A DNA stretch of 64,000 bases from NCBI RefSeq assembly GCF_030540875.1, contig NZ_JAUOEM010000001.1, positions 992,001 through 1,056,000 on the forward strand. Reading direction: 5' to 3'. This DNA is from Flavivirga amylovorans (GTDB lineage: Bacteria > Bacteroidota > Bacteroidia > Flavobacteriales > Flavobacteriaceae). Below are positions 1 through 45,888 of the stretch, one piece after another. The notes below the pieces were generated by a model, which worked only from the letters and a program-made list of their open reading frames with translations, made no database searches and was not told the origin of the DNA. Both the position numbers and the translations under genes were made by a program. Position 1 is the stretch's first letter. The number at the start of each line of letters is the position of its first letter.

Positions 1-374
1 TCATTTTTATTACTGGTCATGGTGCAAATAAAACGGCTTGCGAATTAGCCTTCTTCAAAATATGGGAAAAACATCCAGATTTTAAAGGCATTTGTTGGAA
101 CTGGTGGAGCGATTGTGGTATCACAGGAATTCATCATGCAGATAAAGGCGAAACTGAAGTTGCTATAGCCGTTGGGACACCATCAAAAATGGATCGTGCC
201 AAAGACTTTAAAGTAGAAAAACCTTGGTATAAAATCCGTTCGCGTTATGAATTAGATGCCGAATCGGGAGGTATTAATGGATACCCAACAGAAGCCGATA
301 TTGAAAATGGAAAACAAATACGAGATAAAGCTGTGGTAGAATTGACAAAGAAGGTTCAAAAAGCATTCGATTAA
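1..374 (+). CDS. Creatininase-family protein, C-terminal part (5' end outside window)
   Basis: The reading frame is open from position 3 to the stop at 374, giving about 123 C-terminal residues; the start lies to the left. The pieces ITGHGANKT and HADKGETEVAIAVGTP match the glycine- and histidine-rich metal-site blocks of the creatininase fold (compare the family's NGHGGN and HAGxxET motifs). The family holds metal-dependent cyclic-amide hydrolases and a few enzymes on other substrates. The stop is 6 bases before the KDPG aldolase start, so the two genes are very likely co-transcribed, and a role in sugar-acid catabolism is more likely than creatinine turnover. That role is inferred; the substrate cannot be read from the fragment. 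Confidence 0.75.
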   Translation, partial: IFITGHGANKTACELAFFKIWEKHPDFKGICWNWWSDCGITGIHHADKGETEVAIAVGTPSKMDRAKDFKVEKPWYKIRSRYELDAESGGINGYPTEADIENGKQIRDKAVVELTKKVQKAFD

Positions 375-380
375 AAAATT

Positions 381-1004
381 ATGAAACATTTTTTCGAACA
401 TAAAATACTACCTGCTATCACTATTGAAGATGAAACTAAAGCAGTAAAAATTGCTGAAGCTGTTATCGCTGGTGGTCTAAATATCATGGAAGTTCCTTTT
501 CGAACTGAAGCTGCTGCTAGATGCATTAGAAAGATTGTTGATGCTTTTCCAAACTTACATGTTGGAGCAGGAACTTTATTAACACCAGAACAAGTAGTTT
601 TAGCTAAGGAAAGTGGTTCAGCATTTGGGTTGGCTCCTGGATTTAATAAAGCAGTAGTACAGCAAGCTATAGATCTCAATTTCCCTTTTATTCCTGGAGT
701 CATGACGCCTTCAGAGGTAGAATTAGCGTTAGAAATGGAATGTAAAGTGCAAAAGTTGTTTCCGGCTTCTCAAGTAGGAGGCATTAATATGTTAAAAGCT
801 TTAGCAGGCCCTTACGGGCATACAGGTGTTGCTTTTATTCCTATGGGAGGTGTATCTCTTAAAAATATGGATGAATTTTTAGCCATGCAAAATGTCATTG
901 CTATAGGCGGCTCTTGGTTGGCTACCAAACAGTTAATTGCAGATGGAGATTATAGTACAATTACAAAAAATATTAGTAAAGCAATAGGGGTTGCAGTGCA
1001 TTAA
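381..1004 (+). CDS. eda: KDPG/KHG aldolase (2-dehydro-3-deoxy-phosphogluconate aldolase)
   Basis: This 207-residue cytosolic class I aldolase splits 2-keto-3-deoxy-6-phosphogluconate into pyruvate and glyceraldehyde 3-phosphate. The length is normal for the family. Glu37 and Arg41 in IMEVPFRTEAA and the Schiff-base lysine Lys125 in VQKLFPAS match the known E45/R49/K133 triad of the E. coli enzyme, and HVGAGTLLTPEQV and IPMGGVSLKN are typical phosphate-side loops. It follows the creatininase-family gene by 6 bases. In a PUL with a lyase and a GH88 it would serve uronate breakdown (KDG to KDPG to pyruvate). KDG kinase and the isomerase/reductase steps are not in the window. The name rests on family motifs; a keto-deoxy-fuconate-type substrate cannot be excluded. 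Confidence 0.92.
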   Translation: MKHFFEHKILPAITIEDETKAVKIAEAVIAGGLNIMEVPFRTEAAARCIRKIVDAFPNLHVGAGTLLTPEQVVLAKESGSAFGLAPGFNKAVVQQAIDLNFPFIPGVMTPSEVELALEMECKVQKLFPASQVGGINMLKALAGPYGHTGVAFIPMGGVSLKNMDEFLAMQNVIAIGGSWLATKQLIADGDYSTITKNISKAIGVAVH

Positions 1005-1084: not shown

Positions 1085-3235
1085 ATGAACAGACCAAAAT
1101 TAGCAATTTTATGGATTGTCGTAATATTTGTGCAATATGGCCATGCTCAAAATTCTAAAGTATTAGGTAATGCTAGTTTCCAATTTTCAGACAATACAAT
1201 TACAGTGTCTACAGGTAAAGTTGAACGAAAATGGCGTTGGACAGGAGCTGGATTTTTGACTACCAGTTATAAAAACCTGTTATCAGGAAAAGAGTGGGCT
1301 ACTTTAAAAAAATCAGATGCTAAATATGAGAGCCAGCCAATTAATATAAACAGTCGTAAAACATGGACTCAATCTGATCGAGTTCATAATAGCGATTGGG
1401 ATCTTCCTACGAAGATTGACTCAAATTCCGAGGCTAAACTTCTTTCGTTGAATTGTCTAGAAACAGATGATGAACACTTTACTTCTAATCATTTATTGGT
1501 TACTGCTCATATGGTTTACGATAGTGGTTTAGAACTTAAATACTTGATTCGAGTGTATCCAAACGCCACAGGGATTTGGACTGCTATCGAGGTAAAGGCT
1601 TTAGATTCTTTTTCATCAGATGGTATACCAGAAGACATAAATACCAGAAAGTATTATGGTTCTAGACAGCCAATTAAAATTGCTAGGACTGAATATATAC
1701 CTGTTGATTTTTCTTTGCCCAACCAAAGACGATATTGGGGCCTTTATAACGATCCTGGAAACCGTGTTAATACCAAAGATATGGTAAAGGAAAAGGTCGT
1801 ACAAGGTTGGCCTATTTTTCAAGATGAACAAAATACCTGGGCTAATGGAGTATCTATTGAATCGGATGGAGAAGGCCTGATTTTGGTTAAAGAATCTAAT
1901 AAGACAGTTAATAAATATGGGCATCAAACTGGATCTTTTTTCTGTACACCAATAGGTGTGGAAGTTACAGGATGGGGTTTGAAACCTAGTGAGATTACCT
2001 CAGAATTTAGAAGGACATGGGGGACTTGGTCTATACTCTATTCAGGAGGGGAAGACAACATGGAGTTCGCTTTAAAGCAATTTGATCGTATACGTTACCC
2101 CGTAAATTTAGAAAGGGATATGCATATTCTTATTGATACTTGGGGTAGTGATTTACAAAATGATGAGTATAAGAAGATTTATGGTCGAGAGAATTCCAAG
2201 TTTCCAGTTATTGAAAAAGAGATTAAATCGGCTTCAGATCTTGGGATTGATATTGTGCGTATTGATGATGGCTGGCAAGAAGGTGGAACAATGAGTAAAA
2301 ATTCATGGCATCCCAATACAAAGGTCGGTTACGATGCCAATTGGGGTAAAATAAAAAAAATATCGACAGATTACAATGTTCAGATAGGTCTGTGGGCTGC
2401 AGTTCGCTATATTACAGCCGAAGAATTAATCAGTAATCAAAAGAAGTTGGGTGTAGCTACTTGGAAATTCGATTTTGACAAGTTAGAAAATTGGGAATCT
2501 TTTAATGCTCGTATAAAAGGGATTCGAAAATTCATAAAAGAAACTAATTATACCACTCAAGTTTCTTGGTGTCCGGAATATGACGATCAACGCTACGGAT
2601 GGTATAATAAAAATCGTGAGTATGGTCCTATGTACTTTCAAAATATTCAAAACAATTTACCACATCATATAGTTTATGTGCCATATATTACACTTCGACA
2701 TCATTGGATGATGTCAAAATATTATAATATGAATGCGCTTCAATGTCATTGGCAAAACCCATCAAGAACTAACCCTAAATATTCTGATGCCTATTTGCAC
2801 GGTCAATCCTATGCCGCTATGTCTGCGTTTATGTCTGCTCCTTCATGCTTTATGTTAACACAATTTTTAAAACCAGAAGAAAGAGATGAATTGAGAGAAG
2901 TGATTAGTGTTTATAAAGCACATCGCAAGGAAATATTTAACTCTTTTGTTTTTCCAATTGGAGATGAACCTAATAATGCTTCATGGACAGGATTTCAAAT
3001 AGCCAATAAAGAAAACAATATAGGATATCTCATGATTTTTAGAGAACTTCATAATATTGAAGAGAAAAAAATAATGAAACTTAAGTTTTTAGATAGCAAG
3101 AAAATAAAAATAAAAGATTTAGAACGATCAGGAAGCAAAGAAATTCTTATGAATGTCGAAAATGGAAATATAGAATTGAATATTCCAAAATCTGCCGACT
3201 ATCGCTTTTTTCGATATGAAATATTAGATAATTAA
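1085..3235 (+). CDS. GH36-like (clan GH-D) glycosidase, putative alpha-galactosidase
   Basis: A 716-residue protein with a signal peptide (about residues 1-21, ending GHAQ). An N-terminal beta-sandwich region is followed by a TIM barrel containing VRIDDGWQEGG (about 393-403), IGLWAAVRY and WKFDFDKL. Asp463 in K-x-D is the probable nucleophile, as in GH27/GH36. The usual GH36 acid/base motif (SGGxRxD) is absent; the matching place reads SWCPEYDDQRYG, so an Asp there may act. The protein is probably periplasmic and removes alpha-galactose or a related sugar from oligosaccharides. It sits 80 bases after the aldolase and upstream of the MFS porter. The fold is fairly certain and the specificity is open. 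Confidence 0.75.
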   Translation: MNRPKLAILWIVVIFVQYGHAQNSKVLGNASFQFSDNTITVSTGKVERKWRWTGAGFLTTSYKNLLSGKEWATLKKSDAKYESQPININSRKTWTQSDRVHNSDWDLPTKIDSNSEAKLLSLNCLETDDEHFTSNHLLVTAHMVYDSGLELKYLIRVYPNATGIWTAIEVKALDSFSSDGIPEDINTRKYYGSRQPIKIARTEYIPVDFSLPNQRRYWGLYNDPGNRVNTKDMVKEKVVQGWPIFQDEQNTWANGVSIESDGEGLILVKESNKTVNKYGHQTGSFFCTPIGVEVTGWGLKPSEITSEFRRTWGTWSILYSGGEDNMEFALKQFDRIRYPVNLERDMHILIDTWGSDLQNDEYKKIYGRENSKFPVIEKEIKSASDLGIDIVRIDDGWQEGGTMSKNSWHPNTKVGYDANWGKIKKISTDYNVQIGLWAAVRYITAEELISNQKKLGVATWKFDFDKLENWESFNARIKGIRKFIKETNYTTQVSWCPEYDDQRYGWYNKNREYGPMYFQNIQNNLPHHIVYVPYITLRHHWMMSKYYNMNALQCHWQNPSRTNPKYSDAYLHGQSYAAMSAFMSAPSCFMLTQFLKPEERDELREVISVYKAHRKEIFNSFVFPIGDEPNNASWTGFQIANKENNIGYLMIFRELHNIEEKKIMKLKFLDSKKIKIKDLERSGSKEILMNVENGNIELNIPKSADYRFFRYEILDN

Positions 3236-3509: not shown

Positions 3510-4898
3510 ATGGAAAACACTAAACATTTTAACTTTAAATATATTTTGTCCATCTCTATGATATCTGCTCTTGGGGGACTGCTTTTTGGTTACGATTGGG
3601 TAGTAATTGGTGGAGCAAAACCTTTTTATGAAAGGTTTTTTGGTATTTCTGAAATACCACATCTTCAAGGTTGGGCAATGGGAAGTGCTTTAATAGGGTG
3701 TATTGTTGGAGCAGCTATAGCTGGTAAAGTCACGGAACGTTTTGGTAGAAAAAAACCTTTAGGTCTTGCCGCTTTTTTGTTTGTTGTTTCTGCGGCAGGA
3801 ACAGGTTGGTTTAATGATTTTAATTTATTTATTGTCTTTAGAGTTTTGGGGGGATTAGGTATTGGCCTGGCTTCTACAATTTCACCCATGTATATAGCCG
3901 AAGTATCGCCATCTATTTATAGAGGACGTTTAGTATCGCTTAACCAATTAGCTATAGTAATAGGGATATTGGCAGCGCAATTTATAAACTTTTTTATTGC
4001 AGATGTAGTTCCTGATAATATGACCGATTTAGAAATAATGAATTCATGGAATGGACAAACGGGTTGGAGATGGATGTTTTGGGCAGAATTAGTTCCTGCA
4101 TTTTTGTTTTTTGTACTGATTTTTGGTATTCCTGAAAGCCCGAGGTGGTTGTCAAAAAATAAAAAAATGGATTTATCAAAGAAAGTATTATTAAGTATTG
4201 GAGGTAAAGACTATGCAGAAGATGTTCAAAAAGAAATTAACGAAACATTACAAGAAACTGCAAGTGCTTTGAGCTTAAAAAAACTGTTTAAAGGGAAGAA
4301 TAGAAGCTTGATTATTATAGGTATTATATTGGCTTTTTTACAACAATGGTGTGGTATTAATGTGGTTTTTAATTATGCGGAAGAAGTATTTGCCAGTGCT
4401 GGTTATGGGGTGAGTGATGCACTATTCAATATCATTTTAACCGGGATTGTAAATCTTGTATTTACATTAATTGCTATGCAGGTTATAGATCGTTGGGGAA
4501 GGAAAAGTCTTTGGCTAATGGGGTCTTTAGGCCTATGTACTCTGTATGTTTTTATTGGATTGTTCTATTTTTTCGAGCTAAAAGGCTTCGCTTTGGTTGT
4601 GTTAATTGTAGCAGCGATTGCTGTTTATGCACTTACATTAGCCCCAGTATTTTGGGTATTGGCCTCAGAAATTTTTCCTAATAAAATTAGAGGAGCAGCT
4701 ATGTCAATAACGACAACTTCCTTATGGTTAGCTTGTTTTTTATTAACGTATAGCTTTCCTATTCTTAATAAAACTATGGGAACTTATGGTACCTTCTGGG
4801 TATATGCAGGAATATGCGTATTATGCTTTTTGTTTGTGAAATATAAAATTCCAGAAACTAAAAATAAAACATTGGAAGAGATTGAAGACCTTTGGTAA
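3510..4898 (+). CDS. MFS sugar:proton symporter (sugar porter family)
   Basis: A 462-residue inner-membrane carrier with about 12 hydrophobic segments. It carries the sugar-porter hallmarks: GGLLFGYDWVVIGGA in TM1, FGRKKPL in the loop after TM2, RGRLVSLNQL, PESPRWL near residue 209, DRWGRKSL in the second half and PETKNKTLEEIE at the C-terminus. The length is typical of XylE/GLUT-like porters. It is not of the FucP (FHS) type, so if it moves fucose it does so by a different family. It is the only inner-membrane sugar transporter in the window and probably imports monosaccharides released in the periplasm. It lies between the GH36-like gene and the AraC/DUF5107 pair. Confidence 0.9.
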   Translation: MENTKHFNFKYILSISMISALGGLLFGYDWVVIGGAKPFYERFFGISEIPHLQGWAMGSALIGCIVGAAIAGKVTERFGRKKPLGLAAFLFVVSAAGTGWFNDFNLFIVFRVLGGLGIGLASTISPMYIAEVSPSIYRGRLVSLNQLAIVIGILAAQFINFFIADVVPDNMTDLEIMNSWNGQTGWRWMFWAELVPAFLFFVLIFGIPESPRWLSKNKKMDLSKKVLLSIGGKDYAEDVQKEINETLQETASALSLKKLFKGKNRSLIIIGIILAFLQQWCGINVVFNYAEEVFASAGYGVSDALFNIILTGIVNLVFTLIAMQVIDRWGRKSLWLMGSLGLCTLYVFIGLFYFFELKGFALVVLIVAAIAVYALTLAPVFWVLASEIFPNKIRGAAMSITTTSLWLACFLLTYSFPILNKTMGTYGTFWVYAGICVLCFLFVKYKIPETKNKTLEEIEDLW

Positions 4899-5271: not shown

Positions 5272-6147
5272 TTAATCTTTTTTAAGTCTATAAGATGAAG
5301 GCGATTTCCCCATTGTATTTTTGAATACGCGTGTAAAATAATAAGGATCTTCATAGCCTATAGTTCTTGCTATTTCATTAATCCTTAATGTACTATAGTC
5401 TAATAAGTGACATGCTTTTTGTATTCTTAAAAATGTTAAGTGCTCTATTGGAGTATGGTCTGTATGTTTTTTAAAAAGTAGGCAGAAATGAGAAACAGAA
5501 AAGCCGCAGTGAATAGCTAAATCGCGTACTGTAATATTTTGATTTAAATTGTCTTTCATATATATAGTAGCTTTGGATATGGGGTCTTTTCTGTATATCT
5601 TTCTATTTTTTCTGTATAGGGATAAATATTTTAAAGACCCTAATAAGTTAATAAGTATCACACTACTATACTCTAGGTTGTTTAAAGAAAGTCCCGCTTC
5701 TAACGTGTAATAAATTTCTTCAAACAAATGAAACTGGTCTTCTAATTTTGTATTAATATCATTATTTAAAATGCGAGGGTAGTTATATGGTAAAATGAAA
5801 TGATCGGTGTTTTCTCCTCCGAAATGTATCCAATAAATACTCCATGGCTTATCATGATTTGATGCGTATTTATGAGTAGTGTTAGGAGGTATAATGTGAT
5901 ATTGATTTTTATGAATAAAGTTCCGTTTCCCATTTATTTCTATCCAACCTGAACCTTTTACACATAAAATAAGAATATATTCCGAACAGCCTTGACCTCT
6001 TTCTCTATAGTGATATTTTGCATTGGGGAAAAAACCTACGTCTGTTACATATAATCCCCTTGTAAAAGTGTGTTTTTTTAAAATTTTAATTGATTTTTTT
6101 GGGATAACCAATATCTTTTCTCCAGTAAAACTATCCTTTTTTCTCAT
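5272..6147 (-). CDS. AraC-family transcriptional regulator with cupin sensor domain
   Basis: A 291-residue cytosolic regulator. The N-terminal half looks like an AraC-type sugar-binding cupin (YHIIPPNTTHKYASNHDKPWSIYWIHF, broken here only by reading, is the typical histidine-rich strand block, about residues 85-112). The C-terminal hundred residues hold two helix-turn-helix units (LAIHCGFSVSHFCLLFKKH and IGYEDPYYFTRVFKNTMG). It is transcribed away from the DUF5107 gene across a 137-base shared control region, so it probably regulates that gene and possibly the transporter and GH36-like genes in response to a monosaccharide. The effector is not identifiable. Confidence 0.88.
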   Translation of the reverse strand: MRKKDSFTGEKILVIPKKSIKILKKHTFTRGLYVTDVGFFPNAKYHYRERGQGCSEYILILCVKGSGWIEINGKRNFIHKNQYHIIPPNTTHKYASNHDKPWSIYWIHFGGENTDHFILPYNYPRILNNDINTKLEDQFHLFEEIYYTLEAGLSLNNLEYSSVILINLLGSLKYLSLYRKNRKIYRKDPISKATIYMKDNLNQNITVRDLAIHCGFSVSHFCLLFKKHTDHTPIEHLTFLRIQKACHLLDYSTLRINEIARTIGYEDPYYFTRVFKNTMGKSPSSYRLKKD

Positions 6148-6284: not shown

Positions 6285-9200
6285 ATGGAAGTGAAAGTTT
6301 GGTCCGAAAAAGTTGTAATTCCCACGTATGAAATTGGTGAGCCTGAAAAAAATCCAATATTCTTAGAAAAACGAGTATATCAAGGCAGTAGCGGGAAAAT
6401 GTATCCTAATCCTGCTATTGAGAAAATTCATGATGATAAAATAGATAAAGAATGGTTGGGTTGTTTTCTTGAAAATGACTTTCTGAAAATAATGATTTTG
6501 CCAGAATTAGGTGGACGTGTACAAATGGCATACGATAAAACTAAAAAGCGTCATTTTGTATATTATAATGAGGTTATAAAGCCCGCATTAGTAGGGTTGA
6601 CAGGACCTTGGATTTCTGGTGGTATCGAATTTAATTGGCCGCAACATCACAGACCTAGTACTTACGAGCCTGTTGATTATAAAATAGAAGAACATTCAGA
6701 TGGTAGTAAAACTGTATGGTGCAGTGAGATAGAACGTATGTTCGGTACTAAAGGAATGGCGGGTTTTAAACTGTATCCGGACAAAGCTTATTTAGAGATA
6801 AATGCTAAACTATATAACAGAACATCCTTACCTCAAACATTTCTGTGGTGGGCTAATCCTGCAGTTGCAGTAAATGATGATTACCAATCTGTTTTTCCGC
6901 CAGATGTAAATGCTGTATTCGATCACGGGAAACGCGATGTTTCAAAATTTCCTATTGCTACTGGAACCTATTATAAATTTGATTACTCGCCAGGAACAGA
7001 TATATCAAGATATAAAAACATACCCGTGCCTACTTCATATATGGCAATAAAATCTAAGTATAATTTTGTAGGAGGTTATGAAAATGATAGTAAGGGGGGA
7101 TTGCTTCACGTAGCAAATCATCATGTGTCACCTGGAAAAAAACAATGGACTTGGGGTGATGGTGATTTTGGGAGAGCTTGGGATAGGAACTTAACAGATA
7201 ATAATGGCCCTTATATTGAATTAATGTGTGGCGTTTATACAGATAACCAGCCCGATTTTTCTTGGATTATGCCTTACGAAGAAAAGGCCTTTACGCAATA
7301 TTTTATGCCCTATCAGGACTTAGGCGTTGTTAAGAATGCATCAAAAAATGCGATGCTAAACCTTGAATTTATAGGAGATAAAGCTGCGCTTAGTGTATAT
7401 GCAACAGGAATTTATAAGCATGTATCTATAAAGGTTTTACAAGAGAATAAAGAGTTGTTGAATGATAAATTCGATTTTAAACCTGGCGTTACATATTTTA
7501 AAGACCTTACAATAGATGCAGCGGTTTCTCAAGACAGCTACTATGTTTCAGTTGTTTCAGAAGAAGGTGAATTGCTTATCGATTGGGCACCAGAAAAGAA
7601 GGAGTTTGATGATATTCCAGAAGCAGCAAAAGCAGCGAAAGCTCCAAAAGAAATTTCAACCATCGAAGAACTTTATTTAAATGGTCAACATTTAGAGCAA
7701 TATAGACATGCCACTTATAGCCCTACAGATTATTATCAAGAAGCTTTAAATAGAGATCCTGAGGATATTCGTTGTAATAATGCCATGGGATTATTATCAT
7801 TTCGTAATGGGAAATTCAGGGAATCAGAAACGTATTTTCTAAAAGCCTATCAGAAACAGATTTTAAGAAACCCCAACCCTTATGATGGTGAACCTCTTTT
7901 TAATTTAGGCTTGTCATTGCGATATCAAGGGAAGAGCCAGCAAGCCTATGAAGCTTTTTATAAATCCATTTGGAATACTAACTTTATGGATAGCGGCTAT
8001 TTCCAAATAGCCCAAATAGAAGCTCAAAATAAAGAATGGAACTTAAGCTTAGAATCCATAGATAAATCCTTAATTCGAAATTGGCATAACCACAAAGCTA
8101 GGCATTTAAAAGCGGCAATTCTAAGGAAAAACAATAATATAATCGAAGCTAAAAAACTAATTGATGCATCACTTGAATTGGATGCTTTTAATTTTGGACT
8201 CTATTTTGAAAAGTTTTTGCTAGGAGATTCTACTGCTAAAAATGATATGATAGAATTAATGCGAGGTAATATTCAAAATTATATTGAAATCTCGTTGGAT
8301 TACCATTGGGCAGGAATGTATGCTGAAGCCATCGAACTATTAAATGCTGGTATAGAACAAGAAGCTGATATTTACCCTATGGCTTTATATTATAAAGCTT
8401 GGTTTTTAGATAAATCTGGTGAAAGAAGTAAAGCAATAACTGTAGTAAAAGAATCGGAAATGTGTTTACCGGACTATTGCTTTCCAAATAGATTGGAATC
8501 TGTGTTGGCTTTGCAATTCGCTATGAAAGTGAATCCTGATGGAGCAAAAGCGCCTTATTATTTAGGTAATTTTTGGTATGATAAACGTCAGTATCAAGAG
8601 GCTTTACAATGTTGGGAAACATCTATTGAAAACGACACCAATTTTCCAACAGTTTATAGAAATTTAGCGCTTGCTTACTTCAATAAATTTAACAAGGAGG
8701 AAAAAGCACTGCATGCTCTAGAAACAGCATTTAAATTAAACAAGCAAGATGCTAGAATTTTTATGGAATTAGATCAACTCTATAAAAAACTTAATAAAAC
8801 AGTTGATTTTAGGCTACATTTCCTTGAAGAACATATAGAATTGGTAAAGCAACGCGATGATTTATATATTGAATGGGTTTATTTAAATATTTTAAAAAGA
8901 GATTTTTTAAAAGCATTCAATTTAATTATGGAAAGGAAATTTCACCCATGGGAAGGCGGAGAAGGAAAGATAACAAAAGCCTATACAGTATGTCTTGTTA
9001 ATTTGAGTAAGATCTCTATTGAGAATAAAGAGTTTGATAAGGCTATAGATCTGCTTCATAAAGCAAAAACTTACCCACCTAATTTAGGAGAAGGAAAATT
9101 ACAAGGAGCACAAGAAAATGATATTGATTTTTGGTTAGGTTGTGCCTATGAAGGAATGGGTGAATTTGAAGAAGCTAAAACGTATTGGGAGCAAGCATCT

Positions 9201-15144: not shown

Positions 15145-15156
15145 ATGTATTTTATC

Positions 15157-19814: not shown

Positions 19815-19940
19815 ATGAATCATATTTTTGATGACATACCTGGAATTCTGTGGAAATGGGAACAGATTTCTGACGGGCTTGAAGTTGTGCTGCCAAAAGA
19901 CCGTCCGTTTAAAGAGGCATATTGTTTAAGAATTCAATAA
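19815..19940 (+). pseudogene. C-terminal remnant of a GH29 alpha-L-fucosidase
   Basis: A 41-codon frame ends in a stop at 19938-19940. Its tail DGLEVVLPKDRPFKEAYCLRI is the classic GH29 C-terminal sandwich strand; the intact GH29 at 22292 ends with the related DGLRITMPDKKPCDNAYTF. Preceding it, ILWKWEQISDG matches the WEQHPDG stretch of the same neighbour. Nothing upstream encodes the barrel, so most of the gene is gone. The stop codon touches the first possible ATG of the phosphoesterase gene, showing that the two genes were once adjacent. Found by reading; too short for automatic gene calling. Confidence 0.72.
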
Positions 19941-20011
19941 TGCTTCATGTTTTTATAAAAAATCAGTATAGAATGAATAAAATTCAAACAGTTTCCAAAT
20001 TATTTGGCTTT

Positions 20012-36400: not shown

Positions 36401-37510
36401 TCTAATTCGGCTTTCAATAATACTATTTTTGTCATGGGCTTGGTGCCTGATTAACTTAAAGACACTGTTTTTAGAAGTGTTGAAACAAACGCCACCTGCA
36501 TAGGTTCCAACCCATAAAATACCTTCTCTATCTTCATATACCGAATATAATGAATTGGTTACCAGGCTTTGAATATGGTCTGGATTACGATTTATTGTTG
36601 TTAATGTATGGGATGATTTATCCATTTTACTTAATCCACCTCCATTAGTTGCTATCCAAAGGTTACCTTCTTTAGTTTGGAAAATATCAAATACATCATT
36701 GTGGGGAAGATTGCTGTTTTCTGTATTATAAGTTTTAAAATGAATGTCTCCCTTTTTAAGATAAGAAAGTCCACCTTGAACAGTACCTACCCAAAGATCT
36801 CCAGTGTTATTAATAGAAAGCGACTTAATAGTATTTCCTGCAACCGAATTTTTGTCATTCTCATCATGAAAATAACGGGTTATTTGTTTACTTTTCTTGT
36901 TAAGTTGGTTTAAACCATTTTGTGTTCCTATCCATAAACCAATACTATCATTTGCTAACGATAGTATTTCAGAATCTGATAATGAATTTGGAGTGTTTAT
37001 AGAATGTCTATAATTATCTACTACACCGAGTTTAAGACTGTACAAAACAAGACCTTCAGAAGTGCCTAGCCATGAAAGTGAGTCATTCTCTTTTTCAATA
37101 CAATATACTCTTATGGGGTTATTAAAGTTTTTGAATAAATCACATTGAGTCACTTTTTTACTAATTGGATTGTAGAGTTTCAATCCATTGTCTGTTCCAA
37201 TCCAAAGTAAGCTATTTTTATCTTCGTATAAATCATAAACCTTTTTTCCGCTTAAAATTTTAGATTTATTTTGATTGATATCAATAACTTCGATATCATA
37301 ACTGTTATATCTGTTAAGTCCGTCGTCTGTACCAAACCATAAATAGCCAGATTTGTCTTTTAAAATAGTATTTACAGTATTTTGAGATAAGCCATTTTCG
37401 GTTGTTAGGTTAAAAAAATCTGAAGAAGATTGGTCTTCAATATATTGAGCATTTGTTAAACAACAAAAGCCAAATGAAAAGAATAATAATAAAAAAAAAT
37501 TATGCGACAT
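33410..37510 (-). CDS. Hybrid two-component system regulator (sensor kinase-response regulator-AraC HTH)
   Basis: A 1366-residue one-protein signalling system. The signal peptide ends LTNAQ (about 21). Around a dozen Reg_prop blades such as LWFGTDDGLNRYN and LWIGTQTGLNLYNP form the periplasmic propeller sensor (about 30-700). A Y_Y_Y-type domain and one membrane span (about 795-820) follow. The cytosolic part has phospho-His845 in ISHELRTPLT, an ATPase with DDGIGIPKN and GAGIGLDYV, a receiver with VLVVEDDFDIRAY and phospho-Asp1155 in LILSDTLMP, and a C-terminal AraC helix-turn-helix (TGFNDPKYFSKCFKQ). It senses a periplasmic oligosaccharide and activates PUL promoters. It is the only minus-strand gene in the degradative block. 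Confidence 0.96.
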   Translation of the reverse strand: MSHNFFLLLFFSFGFCCLTNAQYIEDQSSSDFFNLTTENGLSQNTVNTILKDKSGYLWFGTDDGLNRYNSYDIEVIDINQNKSKILSGKKVYDLYEDKNSLLWIGTDNGLKLYNPISKKVTQCDLFKNFNNPIRVYCIEKENDSLSWLGTSEGLVLYSLKLGVVDNYRHSINTPNSLSDSEILSLANDSIGLWIGTQNGLNQLNKKSKQITRYFHDENDKNSVAGNTIKSLSINNTGDLWVGTVQGGLSYLKKGDIHFKTYNTENSNLPHNDVFDIFQTKEGNLWIATNGGGLSKMDKSSHTLTTINRNPDHIQSLVTNSLYSVYEDREGILWVGTYAGGVCFNTSKNSVFKLIRHQAHDKNSIIESRIRSVLHDNKNNLWFGTWGGISVFNPKNKLYTSYCHEADNPSSLSFNTVTSIFEDSKGNMWFGTYTGGINLLAPNKKSFFHYKHNSNDINSISNNNIYCFAEDNNKKLWIGTQTGLNLYNPDQNNFKKYSNINVRDIKVTKNNNLVLATVGGISIFNTTTETFKDFYSNKLESFPISQVYIENNEELVWFCSQGSGMGYLDLNNQEFTFFTEDDGLPSNFVSSMISLGDDVFWVSTFEGLVKFDKQTQTFENFSNTYKLPSKQFQPKASVILPNNYIGFGGSKGLVIFHPDSISKSKKSPEIVFSSLKIDNKNVNVNTPNSPLSESITSIKQINLKANQKDFSIDFAALDFNNQGGNKYAYILENYMSEWVNIGTTRSIGFTNLNHGDYIFKVKAININNNANGNIKSVKISIAPPFYFTWWFKAFIFISLIVVLYYYNKYTIISTKQKNENELQRLKLKSEEDFNQMRFRFFTYISHELRTPLTLISDPVSQLIKNTKDTKGKDLHFLQLIDKNVFRLLRLADQILDISKLDGDTLSLQVSKQNIIKCIEDTANAFHEFAIQNEITFKFHYQNEELIGWVDEDKIEKILYNLLSNAFKFTVKKGHIEILLNYADEESKDYITISVKDDGIGIPKNKLSKIFEGFYQVESAKSLNPNGAGIGLDYVNRLVKLHHGKISVDSELDMGSTFSFTIPIKKELYEPKNIRNHPPERAPLKPINLVKEDTHAEIITKNNNRNTPKVLVVEDDFDIRAYIVEALSVKFKVIEAPNGKEGLVKALKHFPDLILSDTLMPIMDGIEFCKHIKANEKTNHIPFLFLSAWSSDEFKIKGLSIGAIDYIQKPFSIQILESRITNIIETNKKISEKSKKKVNFIPEDKNIDSTDDLFIKKAYEVLDKNFDDSSFNASKFKEEMNMSHSGLYRKLTQLTGQSSNEFIRDYRLKRATQIIKQNSGLLIAEVCIKTGFNDPKYFSKCFKQVYDMTPSEFTKKYAANDYVTDDPQ

Positions 37511-38321: not shown

Positions 38322-38327
38322 TTGTAT

Positions 38328-40253
38328 ATGTATAAAAATAAAATGATAATTGTTAAGATATGTTTATTGTCTGTTTTCTTTAGTGCCTGTTCTAAAGAAA
38401 AGAAAACAGATAATACCCTTATAAAAAGCCCAAACCTTGATTTTGAATTTGTTTTAAAAACCAATGATAGTTTATCAGGTATTTCTTATTCTGTAAGCTA
38501 CAAAAATGAAGAAATTATTGGAGATTCTAAATTAGGTTTTGTTTTAAACACAGAGAGCCTTAAAAATAAACCATATCAAATTGCTAATGTAAGTCAAATC
38601 GAAAACTCTACAGTAGATTCTACTTGGCTACCTGTTTATGGTGAAAGAAATAAATACCCAGAAATATATAACGAATCTCTTTTTAGGCTTAGTGATGTTG
38701 ACAATCAAGAAATCTTTAACTTAAGAGTAAGAGCTTATAATGAAGGTATAGCTTTTAGATATGAGTTTACAAATGAAGCTAGGAAAATTAATATTATACA
38801 AAAAGAAATAACAGAATTTTCTTTGCCACCAAAAGCGGTCGCTTGGGCATCATTACGGGCTCAAAGTGAAATATTAAAAATGCCTGTTTCTAGTATAAAA
38901 GAAGCTGTAGAAAGACCATTACTAGTTGAATTACAAGATTCTCTGTTTCTGGCAATTGGAGAAGCTGCTTTGGTTGATTATGCTCGAATGAAGTTTATTA
39001 ATAAAGAAGGAAGTCCAGGAACTTTAGTCTCCGAACTTAGTAGTGAAGTTATTGTTGACTTACCGCTCAATACACCATGGCGTTTTATTATGGCAGCAGA
39101 GAAACCCGGACAGTTATTAGAACATAATTATCTTCTTTTAAATTTAAATGAACCAAATCAGTTAGAAGATACCTCGTGGATAAAACCAGGGAAAGTAATA
39201 AGAGAAACAACACTAACGACCAAAGGGGGTATAGCCTGTGTAGACTTTGCAGAAAAACATAACCTTCAATTTATTGAGTTTGATGCAGGATGGTATGGTA
39301 ATGAATATGATGAAGCATCAGATGCAACAACTATAACTGTAGACCCAAAAAGATCTAAAGGCCCATTAGATTTATTAGAAGTAATTAAATATGCCAAGAG
39401 TAAAAATATTGGAGTAATTCTATATGTTAATAGAAGAGCATTAGAAAAACAATTGGACGATGTATTGCCTTTACTTAGTTCATGGGGAGTAAGTGGTATA
39501 AAATATGGATTTGTTAACGTAGGGCCTCAAAAATGGACAAGTTGGTTGCATGATGCTGTTCGAAAAGCAGCCGATTATAAATTAATGATAGATACTCATG
39601 ATGAATATCGACCAACAGGGTATTCCAGAACCTATCCGAATTTTATGACACAAGAAGGCATAAGAGGTGATGAAGAATCTCCTGAGAATTCTATGGTAAT
39701 TAATACCATTTTCACAAGAATGATAGCAGGAGCAGGAGATCAAACCAATTGCTATTTTGCACCACGAGTAACCGAAACGATGGGTTCCCATGTTTCTCAA
39801 TTAGCTAAAGCCGTTTGTATTTATAGTCCATGGCAATTTCTGTATTGGTACGATAGACCTGAAGGTTCTGTAGCAGGAGCAGAAGGTGCAGGTGGAACTA
39901 AAGAATTTATAAAAGAAGTTCCTGAATTGGCATTTTATGACGCACTTCCTACAGTTTGGGATGATACTAAAGTTATTGATGGTTATCCAGGTGAATTTGC
40001 AGTTATAGCAAGAAGGAGCGGGAACGATTGGTTTATAGGTGCCTTAAATGGTGATATTCCGCGTGATATAAAAATCCCTTTAGATTTCTTGACAGAAGGA
40101 AAAACTTATGAGGCTACAATTTATTTTGATGATGATACCCTTACGTCACTGACTAAAGTTGGTATTGATACTAAAAAAGTAAGTATAAAAGATAATTTAG
40201 CTTTTAAGGTAAAAAATAAAAACGGTGTAGCAATTCATCTTAAAGCATTATAA
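38328..40253 (+). CDS. GH97 glycosidase, lipoprotein
   Basis: A 641-residue lipoprotein (lipobox FFSAC). I use the ATG at 38328; an upstream TTG adds two residues. The N-terminal sandwich is followed by a barrel with FIEFDAGWYGNEYDEASD, GIKYGFVNVG and a 19-residue block MIDTHDEYRPTGYSRTYPN, then TQEGIRGDEESPE, all typical of GH97. The nucleophile Asp of retaining members (K-x-D-F) is Gly here, as in inverting SusB. The SusB base Glu439 is matched by Asp425 in HDEY, and Glu508 by the Glu of TQEG. This suggests an inverting alpha-glucosidase or alpha-galactosidase-like enzyme in the periplasm. The alignment is by eye. Confidence 0.88.
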   Translation: MYKNKMIIVKICLLSVFFSACSKEKKTDNTLIKSPNLDFEFVLKTNDSLSGISYSVSYKNEEIIGDSKLGFVLNTESLKNKPYQIANVSQIENSTVDSTWLPVYGERNKYPEIYNESLFRLSDVDNQEIFNLRVRAYNEGIAFRYEFTNEARKINIIQKEITEFSLPPKAVAWASLRAQSEILKMPVSSIKEAVERPLLVELQDSLFLAIGEAALVDYARMKFINKEGSPGTLVSELSSEVIVDLPLNTPWRFIMAAEKPGQLLEHNYLLLNLNEPNQLEDTSWIKPGKVIRETTLTTKGGIACVDFAEKHNLQFIEFDAGWYGNEYDEASDATTITVDPKRSKGPLDLLEVIKYAKSKNIGVILYVNRRALEKQLDDVLPLLSSWGVSGIKYGFVNVGPQKWTSWLHDAVRKAADYKLMIDTHDEYRPTGYSRTYPNFMTQEGIRGDEESPENSMVINTIFTRMIAGAGDQTNCYFAPRVTETMGSHVSQLAKAVCIYSPWQFLYWYDRPEGSVAGAEGAGGTKEFIKEVPELAFYDALPTVWDDTKVIDGYPGEFAVIARRSGNDWFIGALNGDIPRDIKIPLDFLTEGKTYEATIYFDDDTLTSLTKVGIDTKKVSIKDNLAFKVKNKNGVAIHLKAL

Positions 40254-40280: not shown

Positions 40281-41768
40281 ATGACTAAAAATGTAGTAGC
40301 TTGTTTATTAACATTGTTGTTGTTTGTAAGCTGTAAGGAGAAAAATTCTTCAGAAAAGATAGAAGAAACAAAAGAGCAAATACAACCAAATATAGTATTT
40401 ATTTTGGCGGACGATTTAGGGTTTGCAGATTTAGGATTTACAGGTAGTGATTTATACCAAACCCCCAATATAGATAAATTAGCGAGTCAGAGCATGTATT
40501 TTACAAAAGCACATTCTTCGCATCCAACTTGTCAACCAAGCCGTATTTCTTTAATTACAGGTAAGACACCAAGTAGATTAGGAGCCGTAAGTCATGGTAG
40601 TTTAGGAGGTGTAGATGGTAGTGGAATAGACATGAAACCAGAGGAAATTACTTATGGTGATTTTTTACAAAACGCTGGCTATACCACAGCACATATAGGT
40701 AAATGGCATATAGGACATGGTGATAATGGTCCTAAGGATAGAGGTTTTGATGTCGATATAGCATCAAATGAATTTTGCTGTCCTGGTAGCTACATCTACC
40801 CATATAAAAGCAAAGTACTTTCTGAAGAAAAAACTATAAAATCGGCTGTTCCGGATTTGGAATCATATTCACCCGAAACACATTTAACAGAAGCTTTATC
40901 GGCAGAAGCTGCCAATTTTATTGCAAACCAAAAGGGAAATAAAAAACCATTTTTTTTAAACTTATGGTATTATGCAGTGCATACACCTATGGAGGCTAAT
41001 AAAGATAAAGTAGAAAAATACAAGAAATTAATCACTCCAGAAAACAAGCACAAACATGCTACTTATGCAGCCTTAGTCGAACATCTAGATGATGGCGTAG
41101 GAGCTGTTATTAAAGCACTTGAAGAAAATGGAATGGCAGATAATACCATTATAATATTTATGGGAGATAATGGAGGAGAACTGAGGTCTGGGATTACTAA
41201 AAATTATCCACTTCGAGGAGGAAAAGGGATGTTTTATGAAGGTGGTACACGTGTACCCATGTTTGTACATTGGCCAGGTGTTGTTAAGCCAGGTTCTGTT
41301 AATAATGAGCGTGTTGCAGGATGGGATATCTACCCAACATTGCTTTCTATGGCAAAAGTAGATAAGAGTATAGCACGCAATAAAAATTTAGATGGTGCAG
41401 ATTTAACTCCATTATTAAAGGATACGAATGTGAAACTTGAAAACCGACAGTTTAATTGGGTGAAGTATGTGTCGCTAATTCATTATGAAAATAAAACTGA
41501 AAGAAACTGGCCAGGGAGAAGTATTATAAAAGATGAATGGAAGTTAATAGAATATTATAATATGCCTTATGATCTTGATAGACACCAATTCCTTTTGTTC
41601 AATCTTGCAGAAGATCCTTCGGAAAAAAATAATCTTGCAAGTGAAAATAAAGAAAAATTAGAAGAGCTTATTATGGCTATGGATAAATGGGGTAAAGATG
41701 TAAATGCACCAGAATATGATATGGAAAAATTCTATGGAGAAGTACATAGAGCAAGTTTAAAAAAATAA
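40281..41768 (+). CDS. S1-family formylglycine sulfatase, lipoprotein
   Basis: A 495-residue lipoprotein (lipobox LFVSC, Cys18). QPNIVFILADDLGFADLGFT gives metal ligands Asp44 and Asp45. CQPSR with Cys84 is the formylglycine motif, and FMGDNGGELRSG and YPLRGGKGMFYEGGTRVPMF are the usual distal metal and sulfate-binding loops. It differs clearly from the sulfatase at 25438 in length and motif (CTPSR), so it probably belongs to another S1 subfamily and removes a different sulfate group. It follows GH97 by 27 bases and is likely co-transcribed. Confidence 0.93.
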   Translation: MTKNVVACLLTLLLFVSCKEKNSSEKIEETKEQIQPNIVFILADDLGFADLGFTGSDLYQTPNIDKLASQSMYFTKAHSSHPTCQPSRISLITGKTPSRLGAVSHGSLGGVDGSGIDMKPEEITYGDFLQNAGYTTAHIGKWHIGHGDNGPKDRGFDVDIASNEFCCPGSYIYPYKSKVLSEEKTIKSAVPDLESYSPETHLTEALSAEAANFIANQKGNKKPFFLNLWYYAVHTPMEANKDKVEKYKKLITPENKHKHATYAALVEHLDDGVGAVIKALEENGMADNTIIIFMGDNGGELRSGITKNYPLRGGKGMFYEGGTRVPMFVHWPGVVKPGSVNNERVAGWDIYPTLLSMAKVDKSIARNKNLDGADLTPLLKDTNVKLENRQFNWVKYVSLIHYENKTERNWPGRSIIKDEWKLIEYYNMPYDLDRHQFLLFNLAEDPSEKNNLASENKEKLEELIMAMDKWGKDVNAPEYDMEKFYGEVHRASLKK

Positions 41769-41918
41769 CTTAAATTTTTAGTCATAAACTATTAAGAATA
41801 ACTATCAAGTTTACTGCTTATATGTAATTATCATTTAGTTCACTAAGAGCATATTGATTTGCTATTTAATAAGCAACCTTACTCGGTATTAGCCAAAAAA
41901 ACATTAAACACTAGAAAA

Positions 41919-44369
41919 ATGTTAAAACGATTGATCTATTTAAGTTTTCTATTATTACCAATTCTGATCTCAGGACAGGTAAACAAGAAAATTTATCATA
42001 AAAACTGGATAGATTTCAACAAAAATGGAATTAAAGAGCCTTATGAAGATGCTAAGGCGTCTGTTGAAGAACGAATAGAAGATTTGTTATCCAGAATGAC
42101 ATTAGAGGAAAAAAGTTGTCAAATGGCTACGCTTTATGGCTTTGGACGTGTACTTAAAGATGAATTACCAACTCCAGATTGGAAAAACAAAATATGGAAA
42201 GATGGTATTGGAAATATCGATGAGCAACTTAATAATTTAGCATATCACCCTTCTGCTGTAACAGATAAAGCATGGCCACCTTCAAAACATGTAAAGTCAT
42301 TAAATGAAATTCAAAAGTTTTTTGTGGAAAATACGCGTTTAGGAATCCCCGTAGATTTTACAAATGAAGGCATACGAGGGTTGTGTCACGAAAAAGCAAC
42401 TAGTTTTCCTTCTCAAATTGGTATTGGGTCGACATGGAATAAAGATTTGGTAAGTCAAATTGGGCATATTACAGGTAAAGAAGCTAGACTATTGGGATAT
42501 ACAAATGTTTATGCTCCCATTCTTGATATAACAAGAGATCCAAGATGGGGAAGAACTGTAGAATGTTATAGTGAAGACCCCTATTTAACTGGTGAACTTG
42601 GTTTTAGGATGGTAACTGCTATACAAGAAGAACATGTTGTTTCTACACCAAAACACTTCGCTATTTACAGTGCTCCAAAAGGTGGGCGTGATGGTGACGC
42701 TAGAACAGATGCGCATATAACAGAAAGAGAAATGTTTTCATTATATCTACACCCTTTTAAAAGAGCAATAAAAGACGCAGGAGCTTTAGGTATTATGAGT
42801 TCTTATAATGATTATAATGGTATACCCGTAACATCTTCAAGTTATTTTTTAAGAGATATTCTTCGTAAATCTTGGGGGTTTAAAGGATATGTAGTGTCCG
42901 ATAGTCGTGCGGTAGAGTTTATTGCTGATAAACACCATGTAGCCCAAGATCATAAAGAAGCAGTTTTAAAATCCGTAAATGCTGGTTTGAATATTAGAAC
43001 AGATTTTACTATGCCAGAAGATTATATTATACCCGTAAGGGAATTAGTAAAAGAGGGTAAATTAAGCATGGATACTATTGACGATTGTGTACGTGATATT
43101 TTAAGAGTCAAGTTTTGGCAAGGTCTTTTCGATGCTCCATACGGGAAGAATTTTTCTAATGCAGATAAAACTGTAGGTAATGGTGATTCTCAAAAAATTT
43201 CTTATAATGCCTCATTAGAATCTATCGTTTTGTTGAAGAATGAAAAAAATATATTACCATTAGATTTCGATAAATATAAGTCGGTATTAGTAACAGGACC
43301 TAATGCTAAAGCTATAAATCATTCAGTAAGTAGATATGGACCATCTCATATAGATGTGGTTTCAGTTTACGATGGTATAAAGGAAAAGTTTCCAAAAGAT
43401 GTTGAGATTAAATATGCTAAAGGATGTGATTTTTTTGACGAGAATTGGCCAGATTCCGAAATTATTTCAATGGCACCAACAGTTTCAGAGCAAGAAGAAA
43501 TTGATAAGGCTGTAGAAATGGCAAAAACAGTAGGTTTAGCGATTATAGTAGTAGGTGATGATGAGGAGACAGTAGGAGAATCTAGATCAAGAACGTCTTT
43601 AGCACTCCCTGGAAATCAACAAAAACTAGTTGAAGCAATATATAATACAGGAACTCCTGTTGTTGTAGTGTTAATTAATGGTCGACCTTTAACTATAAAT
43701 TGGATAAATAAATACGTTCCAGCTGTGGTTGAAGGTTGGTTTCAAGGTAAGTTTGGTGGCACAGCTATAGCAGATGTGCTAGTTGGAAACTATAATCCTG
43801 GAGGTAAACTACCTGTGTCATTTCCAAAAACTGTAGGTCAAGTACCAATGAATTTTCCATCAAAACCAGGAGCTCAAGCCAATCAACCTTCAAATGGACC
43901 AAATGGTTCAGGGAAAACACGTGTTGGAGGGTTTTTGTATCCCTTTGGTTATGGACTTAGCTATACAACATTTAAATATTCCAATTTAATAGTAGATTCT
44001 GGAATTAATAATGGGATAGGTAAAGTAAAAGTATCTGTAGATATTACAAATACAGGAAGTGTTAAAGGTGAAGAAGTAGTGCAACTTTATTTTTCTGATT
44101 TAGTATCTAGCGTTACTGTTTATGAAAAGCAATTAAGAGGCTTTGAAAGAATTAGTTTAGAACCAAATGAAACTAAAAATGTAAGCTTTATTTTAAAAGC
44201 AGATGATTTTGCACTCTATAATAAAGTTATGGAATTTGTTGTAGAACCAGGTGATTTTAAAATAATGATTGGTAGTTCTTCTGAAGACATTAGATTAGCA
44301 CATAATATCACCATTAATGACTTACATGTATTAAGTAATACGATGAAAATATCAAAAGTAAAGAATTAA
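41919..44369 (+). CDS. GH3 beta-glycosidase
   Basis: An 816-residue exported enzyme. The ATG at 41919 gives a clear signal peptide (MLKRLIYLSFLLLPILISGQ); an earlier in-frame TTG at 41859 does not. The N-terminal barrel has DITRDPRWGRTVECYSEDPY, TPKHFAIYSAPKGGRDGD and GYVVSDSRAVEF with nucleophile Asp328. The second domain has the GESRSRTSLALPGNQ region, and YPFGYGLSYTTFKYS leads into a fibronectin III-like end. GH3 enzymes release beta-glucose, beta-xylose or similar residues with retention. It probably acts on periplasmic oligosaccharides; the sugar is not determined by the motifs. Confidence 0.92.
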   Translation: MLKRLIYLSFLLLPILISGQVNKKIYHKNWIDFNKNGIKEPYEDAKASVEERIEDLLSRMTLEEKSCQMATLYGFGRVLKDELPTPDWKNKIWKDGIGNIDEQLNNLAYHPSAVTDKAWPPSKHVKSLNEIQKFFVENTRLGIPVDFTNEGIRGLCHEKATSFPSQIGIGSTWNKDLVSQIGHITGKEARLLGYTNVYAPILDITRDPRWGRTVECYSEDPYLTGELGFRMVTAIQEEHVVSTPKHFAIYSAPKGGRDGDARTDAHITEREMFSLYLHPFKRAIKDAGALGIMSSYNDYNGIPVTSSSYFLRDILRKSWGFKGYVVSDSRAVEFIADKHHVAQDHKEAVLKSVNAGLNIRTDFTMPEDYIIPVRELVKEGKLSMDTIDDCVRDILRVKFWQGLFDAPYGKNFSNADKTVGNGDSQKISYNASLESIVLLKNEKNILPLDFDKYKSVLVTGPNAKAINHSVSRYGPSHIDVVSVYDGIKEKFPKDVEIKYAKGCDFFDENWPDSEIISMAPTVSEQEEIDKAVEMAKTVGLAIIVVGDDEETVGESRSRTSLALPGNQQKLVEAIYNTGTPVVVVLINGRPLTINWINKYVPAVVEGWFQGKFGGTAIADVLVGNYNPGGKLPVSFPKTVGQVPMNFPSKPGAQANQPSNGPNGSGKTRVGGFLYPFGYGLSYTTFKYSNLIVDSGINNGIGKVKVSVDITNTGSVKGEEVVQLYFSDLVSSVTVYEKQLRGFERISLEPNETKNVSFILKADDFALYNKVMEFVVEPGDFKIMIGSSSEDIRLAHNITINDLHVLSNTMKISKVKN

Positions 44370-44427
44370 AAAATAATCTAGATAACAACAACATCTTAAA
44401 AATAAATTGGTAAAGTATAAATTGGGT

Positions 44428-45888
44428 ATGAAAAATATAGTTATTGCAATAATATTAATATTATCATTGAAATCTTTTTCACAAAAAAAATATGAAGCAA
44501 ATTGGGAATCTATCGATAGTAGACCAATTCCTTCGTGGTATACTGATGCTAAATTTGGAATTTTTATTCATTGGGGACCTTATTCTGTGCCTGCATTTTC
44601 TAAAGTTGGTGAATATTCAGAATGGTATTGGATGAATTTAGTAAATCCAAAGAGAATAAAAAATGGGCATAATGAAACTAAAGCATTCCATAATAAAGTG
44701 TATGGTGAAGATTTTACATACCCTGATTTTGTTCCTTTTTTTACAGCAGATATGTTTGATGCAGATCAATGGGCAGATATTATTAAAAAATCAGGAGCAA
44801 AATATACAGTATTGACTTCTAAACATCATGATGGTTATACACTTTGGCCAAGTAAAGAAGCCGATAAATCTTGGGGTAGGCCATGGAGCTCTACAAATAC
44901 TCGCCCAGGAAGAGACCTTGTAGGCGAATTAACAACTGCAGTTCGTAAAACGGACGTAAAAATGGGGCTTTATTACTCCATTTATGAATGGTTTAACCCT
45001 TTGTATACCAGTGATGTGAATTTATATGTAGATAATCATATGGTTCCTCAATTTAAAGATTTAGTACAAAATTATGCTCCTTCTTTAATTTTTGTAGATG
45101 GAGAATGGGATTATCCGCATACAACATGGAAATCAACAGAATTACTTTCTTGGTTGTATAACGACTCAGCAAGTAAAGAAGATGTTGTAATTAACGACCG
45201 TTGGGGTAAAGAAACACGTCATCATCATGGTGGTTACTATACTACGGAATATGGTTCAGGAATGCCAAATGCTGATGTGCCTTGGGAAGAAAATAGAGGT
45301 ATGGCACATTCATTTGGATTTAGTAAAACTGAAAATTTTGAAGATTATAACTCAACTCAACAGCTTATATACATGTTAGTTGATATTGTGAGTAGAGGAG
45401 GTAATTTTCTTTTGGACATAGGACCAACTGCAGATGGGCGTATTCCTGTTATTATGCAAGAGCGATTAATTGAAATAGGAGATTGGTTGAAAGTAAATGG
45501 AGAAGCTATTTATGGCACTACTCTTAATGAAGAAACATGCCAGTGGACAAAAGGAAAAGTAGAAGATGCTAAAAGAGGTCGATATAAAGTAAAATACGAC
45601 GTTATGAAATTAACTGTATCTCCAGATAAAGGTATGGCAACTAAGCAAATAATGTTTACTAAAAAAGGAAATATATTATATGGAATTTGCCCTATTTATC
45701 CAAAGAACCAATTGGTTGTAAAAAATGTAAAATTAAATTCGTCTGCTAAAGTAACATTGCTAGGGTACAGTAAACCTTTAAAATGGGTGCAGAAAGGCAA
45801 TAATGTTGTTATAGAAGTACCTGCTTTAACTGCTTCTGAAGTACCTTGTAATTATGCGTGGACCTTTAAACTAGACGGGCTTAAATAA
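44428..45888 (+). CDS. GH29 alpha-L-fucosidase
   Basis: A 486-residue exported enzyme. An in-frame TTG lies at 44407, but the ATG at 44428 gives the proper signal peptide (MKNIVIAIILILSLKSFSQ). The barrel opens with WYTDAKFGIFIHWGPYSVPA and has YTVLTSKHHDGYTLWPS. The nucleophile is Asp224 in LIFVDGEWDY, and GGNFLLDIGPTADGRIP closes the active-site side. The motif set is that of GH29-A, usually the broader-specificity subfamily. It is the third intact GH29 in the locus and the last PUL gene, followed by 676 bases without a gene. Confidence 0.93.
   Translation: MKNIVIAIILILSLKSFSQKKYEANWESIDSRPIPSWYTDAKFGIFIHWGPYSVPAFSKVGEYSEWYWMNLVNPKRIKNGHNETKAFHNKVYGEDFTYPDFVPFFTADMFDADQWADIIKKSGAKYTVLTSKHHDGYTLWPSKEADKSWGRPWSSTNTRPGRDLVGELTTAVRKTDVKMGLYYSIYEWFNPLYTSDVNLYVDNHMVPQFKDLVQNYAPSLIFVDGEWDYPHTTWKSTELLSWLYNDSASKEDVVINDRWGKETRHHHGGYYTTEYGSGMPNADVPWEENRGMAHSFGFSKTENFEDYNSTQQLIYMLVDIVSRGGNFLLDIGPTADGRIPVIMQERLIEIGDWLKVNGEAIYGTTLNEETCQWTKGKVEDAKRGRYKVKYDVMKLTVSPDKGMATKQIMFTKKGNILYGICPIYPKNQLVVKNVKLNSSAKVTLLGYSKPLKWVQKGNNVVIEVPALTASEVPCNYAWTFKLDGLK

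Follow-up and report, generated by a model that had tools for sequence, protein, structure and literature searches.

A PL33 lyase among fucosidases and sulfatases in Flavivirga amylovorans: a probable utilization locus for a sulfated, fucose-rich and glucuronate-containing polysaccharide

What kind of polysaccharide is served by a run of genes in which fucosidases and sulfatases accompany a lyase from a family known so far from other polymers, and what does the lyase do there? The question is raised by a stretch of 64,000 nucleotides of the Flavivirga amylovorans genome (contig C1:992001-1056000 of a 4.86 Mb genome, here called the window), whose genes were called as open reading frames and then scanned with Pfam, PDB and fold searches, 30 proteins of the window being scanned. 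The answer we favor, with moderate confidence, is that these genes form one polysaccharide utilization locus (PUL) for a sulfated, fucose-rich polysaccharide of the algal type, i.e., of the class of fucose-containing sulfated polysaccharides (FCSP), which also contains 4-linked glucuronic acid. The turnover of FCSP is slow, and marine carbon is held in them (PMC12786026); few enzymes open polymers in which fucose and uronates are mixed. If the window lyase, a member of family PL33, does act on such a polymer, the family would be extended beyond glycosaminoglycans and gellan, and this might suggest a reason why the PL33 of Maribacter forsetii was inactive on the published substrate panel (PMC11848413).

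The lyase and its family

The lyase gene lies at 31397..33391 (coordinates are those of the window, forward strand unless stated otherwise). Searched against the PDB with phmmer, its product matches 8r6z (6.3e-124), 8r75, 8r70 and 8r73 with E from 6e-124 to 1e-118, the next best match being 9o3q at 1e-10; the codes of the first four occur in the PL33 paper (PMC11848413). It is 35% identical to BtPL33HA over residues 31-627, and the catalytic Asn238, Tyr291 and His444 (BtPL33HA numbering throughout) are kept in it and in all 87 aligned sequences (87 of 91 were retained, L006, L025, L033 and L073, shorter than 500 aa, being dropped; L006, with an internal stop, is out of alignment A1). Arg103 and His154 of the +1 subsite and the platform residues Leu174 and Trp239 are identical, and W242, Y470 and F475 are likewise kept. 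What the original prediction had called a heparinase-type lyase, a Hepar_II_III protein, can thus be given a family.

Two positions depart from BtPL33HA, W224 being replaced by His and the His294 column holding Arg. Both changes are shared by the PL33 of Flavivirga rizhaonensis; across the 87 aligned sequences, Arg occupies column 294 in 56 and His column 224 in 6. Trp at 242 defines PL33_1 and Val PL33_2, each with a covarying His/Tyr (PMC11848413). The window lyase has Trp242 but Arg at the presumed partner column, 294 (301 in the paper, a position held by Asp in the numbering used here). Divergent family copies in two genomes, G229 and G002, to which it is 24-26% identical, combine Val242 with Tyr294, the published PL33_2 trait. 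Of their two loci, L175 holds a GH29, a GH97, a weak GH141 match and two further Hepar_II_III proteins, and L176 a GH29, a GH95, a GH141_M match below the cut-off and one further Hepar_II_III protein. In a FastTree phylogeny of 88 sequences (with L013 exchanged for L175, a longer stretch of the same genome), the two Flavivirga lyases are sisters (1.0) within an environmental clade of 68 sequences (0.99), apart from BtPL33.

PL33 is rare around F. amylovorans: at E <= 1e-30 it is matched in 11 of 299 genomes of the family, its own included, and in 2 of 12 of the genus, and the nearest relative among the matches listed is that of F. rizhaonensis (C38:142802-144763, 74%). One genome, G129, carries on C36 a PL33 copy interrupted by one in-frame stop (L006/L123), near genes that by eye resemble those of histidine biosynthesis, and a second, open copy elsewhere (L124).

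A neighborhood kept in two Flavivirga genomes

The lyase gene adjoins that of a GH88 unsaturated glucuronyl hydrolase (30064..31254; PF07470 1e-13), and the pair recurs in F. rizhaonensis (GH88 83%, PL33 74%) within a region of about 100 kb (contig NZ_SRSO01000003.1; C38:71.9-171.1 kb). The same region has counterparts of an AraC regulator (5272..6147, reverse strand; 82%), a DUF5107-TPR protein (6285..9560; PF17128 4.8e-54; 85%), an ECF sigma factor (9748..10329; 81%), a FecR anti-sigma factor (10419..11459; 77%) and the second of three GH29 enzymes, GH29 b, which has an F5/8C domain (23919..25385; PF01120 1.6e-37; 76%). It also holds, in the order of the window and with the regulator divergent as there, a hybrid two-component system regulator (HTCS; 33410..37510, reverse strand; Pfam; 79%, and 71% in G019 and 69% in G248), a GH97 (38322..40253; Pfam; 81%), S1 sulfatase b (40281..41768; Pfam; 83%), a GH3 (41859..44369; Pfam; 88%) and GH29 c (44407..45888; Pfam; 79%, and 80-83% in G019, G248 and G001), which forms the right end of the locus at about 45888, tRNA and housekeeping genes coming next. 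A GH141-like protein (69%) and a second protein like sulfatase b (55%) complete the set, whereas sulfatase a has a counterpart of only 27%. A first impression that the F. rizhaonensis locus lacked S1 sulfatases and GH141 was overturned by a genus-wide GH141 search and 60 kb more of sequence.

Both genus genomes with PL33 therefore carry the HTCS/GH97/S1/GH3/GH29 unit, with 79-88% identity from one to the other, and GH88 adjoins PL33 in both. It is because this sulfatase and fucosidase unit stands in both that we favor a single system acting on a polysaccharide that is sulfated, rich in fucose and contains 4-linked uronate, in agreement with the target first proposed for the window. The combination that marks FCSP PULs, GH29 with GH95, sulfatases and GH3/31/97 around a SusC/SusD pair, is present, GH31 lying upstream of the window. 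The remaining members are the SusC-type TonB-dependent transporter (11605..15144; Pfam), the SusD-type protein (15145..16776; PF07980), a GH95 alpha-L-fucosidase/galactosidase (17076..19415; PF22124 1.4e-153), GH29 a (22292..23869; PF01120 8.1e-97) and S1 sulfatase a (25438..27081; PF00884 4.8e-49). A comparison of two species within one genus yields a small, testable gene set.

Could these be two neighboring PULs with separate substrates, one for a uronate glycan (AraC, DUF5107, sigma/FecR, SusCD, GH88, PL33) and one for FCSP (HTCS, GH97, S1, GH3, GH29)? There are two sets of regulators, the PL33 and HTCS genes are convergent, and in F. rizhaonensis some 33 kb with further SusC/SusD-like and sugar-acid genes separate them. 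On the other hand, the PL33 half includes GH29 and GH95 genes in the window, and a GH29 and a GH95-domain protein in F. rizhaonensis, the halves are linked in two of two genus genomes with PL33, and the window has a single SusCD pair. We regard such a division as doubtful.

Several further observations weigh against a single system. SusC and SusD are 35% and 24% identical between the two Flavivirga loci as against 77-85% for the flanking regulators, which suggests a swapped import pair, and the glycans imported by the two may therefore differ. Four genomes of the genus (G019, G248, G301 and G307) hold a GH141 orthologue of at least 68% with no PL33 match; in G019 and G248, where no PL33 is matched genome-wide at E <= 1e-30, HTCS, GH3, GH141 and GH29 c stand together at 68-82%, with GH88 at 66% in G019. 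In another genus, G001 has the GH36-like protein, MFS porter, GH95, GH29, GH141, GH97, sulfatase b, GH3, GH31 and the GntR-SIS-SDR-FAD oxidoreductase-ROK genes at 53-84%. Its counterpart of sulfatase a reaches just 29%, PL33 is not matched genome-wide at the same threshold, and the 80 kb examined hold no GH88; that G001 has most of the FCSP set in this way also speaks for two PULs. Nor does PL33 as a family appear tied to fucose, since among the best 80 of at least 586 confirmed loci, all from named genomes (50 of the 80 are 15 kb or longer, and flank lengths differ), tblastn with the window's own proteins found a GH29/GH95/GH141-type gene in only 6, an S1 sulfatase in 11 and GH88 in 5. Seen against G001, G019 and G248, the locus resembles a mosaic in which a rare PL33 set is combined with a wider one for fucose and sulfate, the two being joined in both genus genomes that have PL33.

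A PhoD-like phosphatase with a CarboxypepD_reg domain (19922..22030; PF09423 4.6e-9) is also found near both lyases (L016:3100-5610 in F. rizhaonensis, 34%), and is unexplained for a sulfated glycan.

From polymer to monosaccharides

Which enzyme would open the chain? The original prediction suggested that the lyase may have this role, for want of a recognized endo-fucanase. No GH107, GH168, GH174 or GH187 name occurs among the Pfam matches of the PUL proteins, Pfam coverage of all four being unconfirmed. The argument is nevertheless weak, because GH141 now includes endo-fucanases, PL33 looks periplasmic and G001 has most of the set without a PL33 match. Four GH141 enzymes of Wenyingzhuangia fucanilytica were published as endo-fucanases in December 2025, and Wf141_3, placed outside the *6 branch, also acts in endo fashion; that branch is marked by the motifs HQxWxxxD, DG-x24-N-x4-N and RxD (PMC12786026). 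The GH141-like beta-helix enzyme of the window (27410..29851), named as such from the start, matches by profile the GH141 enzyme BT_1002 (E 8.8e-24, the alignment covering chiefly the N-terminal part) and 9rx2 (E 7.6e-45), with a Pfam GH141_M score of 21.3 bits against a cut-off of 27. In a check made without a known *6 positive control, it lacks the first two motifs and has RxD at 565-567, which rules it out as a signature-carrying *6 endo-fucanase. From the family's record, an endo step in the locus could still come from GH141. Four more GH141-like matches occur in the same genome (C1:571077-577383, C11:28885 and C9:269368), so other fucose-type loci may exist in it.

As to location, a simple lipobox pattern, by which lipoproteins were called, is found in GH29 a, GH29 b, GH95, GH88, GH97 and sulfatase b, whereas PL33, GH141, sulfatase a, GH3, GH29 c and the GH36-like protein have plain signal-like N termini. 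With a plain signal peptide, no lipobox by this pattern and no type IX tail recognized by Pfam, PL33 probably sits in the periplasm rather than initiating at the surface, and would act on fragments already imported.

The backbone of fucoglucuronomannan is built of alternating 4-linked glucuronic acid, which would suit a lyase, and a sulfated form of it cut by PL33 is a narrower version of the target proposed here, overlapping with it at the level of class. That lyases for this polymer exist is shown by FdlA (PMC9410043), an enzyme which is itself a parallel beta-helix unlike PL33, and no alpha-mannosidase family is found in the scanned PUL proteins, except for a weak GH76 side match of the GH88 protein; we consider this target improbable. 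A second such version, likewise overlapping at class level, would be fucosylated chondroitin sulfate or some other fucosylated polymer resembling glycosaminoglycans. Known PL33 substrates include hyaluronan, chondroitin/dermatan sulfate, heparosan and gellan (PMC11848413), and the GH88 has unsaturated glucuronyl hydrolases among its homologues (3wiw, E 1.2e-106; 1vd5, 8.5e-53). A SIS protein encoded upstream of the window is distantly related to UPF0309 SCO4393, presumably a GlcNAc-6-P dehydratase. However, the GH36-like, GH97 and GH31 enzymes would have no obvious role on such a polymer, and Pfam scans of the PUL proteins gave no hexosaminidase family except the broad GH3, all of which makes it an unlikely target.

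For the favored polysaccharide of the FCSP class with 4-linked glucuronic acid, degradation might proceed as follows. SusCD would import fragments, the S1 sulfatases would take off sulfate, and GH29 and GH95, perhaps with GH141, would remove or cut fucose. Both sulfatases carry the C-x-P-S-R motif (CTPSR at residue 72 in a); the closest solved structure is 6hr5 for a, which we take to belong to S1_25, and 9fo1, named S1_16, for b. Both subfamilies are listed as fucoidan-linked (PMC12786026). PL33 would then split 4-linked glucuronic acid bonds in the periplasm by beta-elimination, GH88 would take off the unsaturated uronate left by it, and GH36-like, GH97, GH31 and GH3 enzymes would remove alpha- or beta-hexose (or other) decorations, the whole presumably being controlled by HTCS, AraC and the sigma/anti-sigma pair. 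The GH36-fold protein (1085..3235), a putative exo-glycosidase of a clan GH-D-like type, has no Pfam and no NCBIfam match; the resemblance noted earlier is upheld by its AlphaFold model (pLDDT 78.7), closest in Foldseek to the GH36 alpha-galactosidase 6phw (E 9.7e-24, TM 0.64, 12% identity), and by DDGWQ and K-x-D motifs invariant in 8 homologues.

For the sugars released, part of the route would lie outside the locus. A genome-wide search gave no L-fucose isomerase (PF02952, FucI), with 3 of 14 control genomes positive, so that this half of the missing isomerase/kinase set first reported stands (the kinase was not searched genome-wide). Fucose use by the strain is plausible all the same, because the genome encodes FucP (480 bits, cut-off 280), an L-fucono-1,5-lactonase-like protein (277 bits, below the cut-off of 400) and a galactarate/altronate-type dehydratase, which lie at C10:111-118.5 kb with a Zn dehydrogenase, a tagaturonate reductase and an SDR. 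These genes fit a non-phosphorylating route by which fucose would be oxidized. Unsaturated uronate would pass through KduI (444 bits, cut-off 250) and a KduD-like SDR (319 bits, below the cut-off of 339), both at C10:69-75 kb, and could end at the 2-keto-3-deoxy-6-phosphogluconate (KDPG) aldolase of the locus (381..1004; PF01081 6.3e-59; TIGR01182 above cut-off; 62% homologue in the G248 operon). In F. rizhaonensis, the region itself contains an enolase-type sugar-acid dehydratase, an SDR, an aldo/keto reductase, a Zn dehydrogenase and a sodium symporter.

The aldolase gene belongs to an operon that starts upstream of the window (L002:14953-19688 and window 381-1004). The three GH29, the GH95, the two S1 sulfatases, GH88, GH97, GH3, the aldolase and SusC/SusD listed by the original prediction are all borne out by reading frames and Pfam; the window is not the limit of the locus, which continues into L002 (C1:972001-992000). 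The order there is a LamG-domain sulfatase carrying a type IX tail, GH31, GntR, SIS, SDR, FAD oxidoreductase and ROK kinase, and then the aldolase. Further genes within the window, absent from the first list, are the phosphatase, the AraC regulator, the sigma/anti-sigma pair, the DUF5107-TPR protein, the HTCS and an MFS sugar porter (3510..4898; PF00083 5.6e-114). Outside it, between L014:18399 and L002:6050, sulfatase-LamG proteins that bear type IX secretion tails stand in tandem and adjoin large LamG proteins, the second sulfatase-LamG gene starting in L014 as read by eye.

The operon's FAD oxidoreductase is matched in 10 of the 299 genomes of the family, that of F. amylovorans among them, and SIS has no match in the F. 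rizhaonensis genome. Close copies of the operon add a creatininase-family protein (by Pfam in G001, by eye in G248). A distant copy (G201, L111) has in addition a PfkB kinase, a protein of the PTE family and what by eye is an aldolase of the KDPG type. Matches of the operon proteins to the PDB are weak. Its SDR was weighed as KduD (108 bits against a cut-off of 339), the candidate near KduI being better. No published description of this SIS/SDR/FAD oxidoreductase/ROK combination was found in the open-access literature searched. A tentative extension, which we put forward as possible, is that the two Flavivirga lyases, with His for the +2 Trp and Arg near the -1 subsite, stand for a PL33 type specific for 4-linked glucuronate that is fucosylated and sulfated, and that a further monomer of this glycan is processed by an as yet undescribed pathway, encoded in the GntR-SIS-SDR-FAD oxidoreductase-ROK-KDPG aldolase operon.

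Known systems

A close described relative is a PUL of Maribacter dokdonensis 62-1, where PL33 stands with PL40, fucosidases, GH141 and sulfatases, the PL33-PL40 pair being found also in Formosa agariphila (PMC8072126). It has in common with the window PL33 with GH29, GH95, GH97, GH141 and sulfatases, and there kduI/kduD adjoin the PUL and oxidative fucose genes lie downstream; it differs in its PL33 of subfamily 2, its PL40 partner, GH117 and GH28 (PMC8072126). The window has Trp242 instead of Val and a single Hepar_II_III protein, no second one (a PL40-like partner) being found among the 30 proteins scanned with Pfam, and it is thus not a PUL of this PL33-PL40 type. The open-access literature searched yielded no paper on F. 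rizhaonensis and none that places a PL33 of the Trp242 type in an FCSP locus.

With Bacteroides PL33 (BtPL33HA and others) the window lyase shares strong homology, the catalytic N/Y/H and the +1-subsite residues described in PMC11848413; it differs from BtPL33HA in its 35% identity, the Arg and His at the His294 and Trp224 columns, and its neighbors. The F. rizhaonensis locus has the GH88-PL33 pair and the HTCS-GH97-S1b-GH3-GH29c order in common with it and differs in being larger, with four GH141-like proteins, its own sugar-acid genes, another SusCD and no SIS match in the genome. For Maribacter algarum, a taxonomy paper of 2025 predicts PULs that target FCSP, and one more whose substrates would be chondroitin sulfate, gellan and hyaluronan (PMC12313589).

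Predicted FCSP PULs of marine Flavobacteriia from the North Sea (20 PULs in 14 isolates) are marked by GH29 and GH95, with GH3/31/97 as regular companions (PMC6298971). GH29, GH95, GH3, GH31, GH97 and a sulfated target are common to them and to the window, whereas PL33 goes unmentioned in the main text of that paper. Since FCSP PULs are common in marine Flavobacteriia, and PL33 with fucosidases, GH141 and sulfatases has been described in Maribacter, the locus is of a kind already known; the gene cluster is mostly conventional, and its unusual part is the cutting enzyme, from a family known so far from other polymers.

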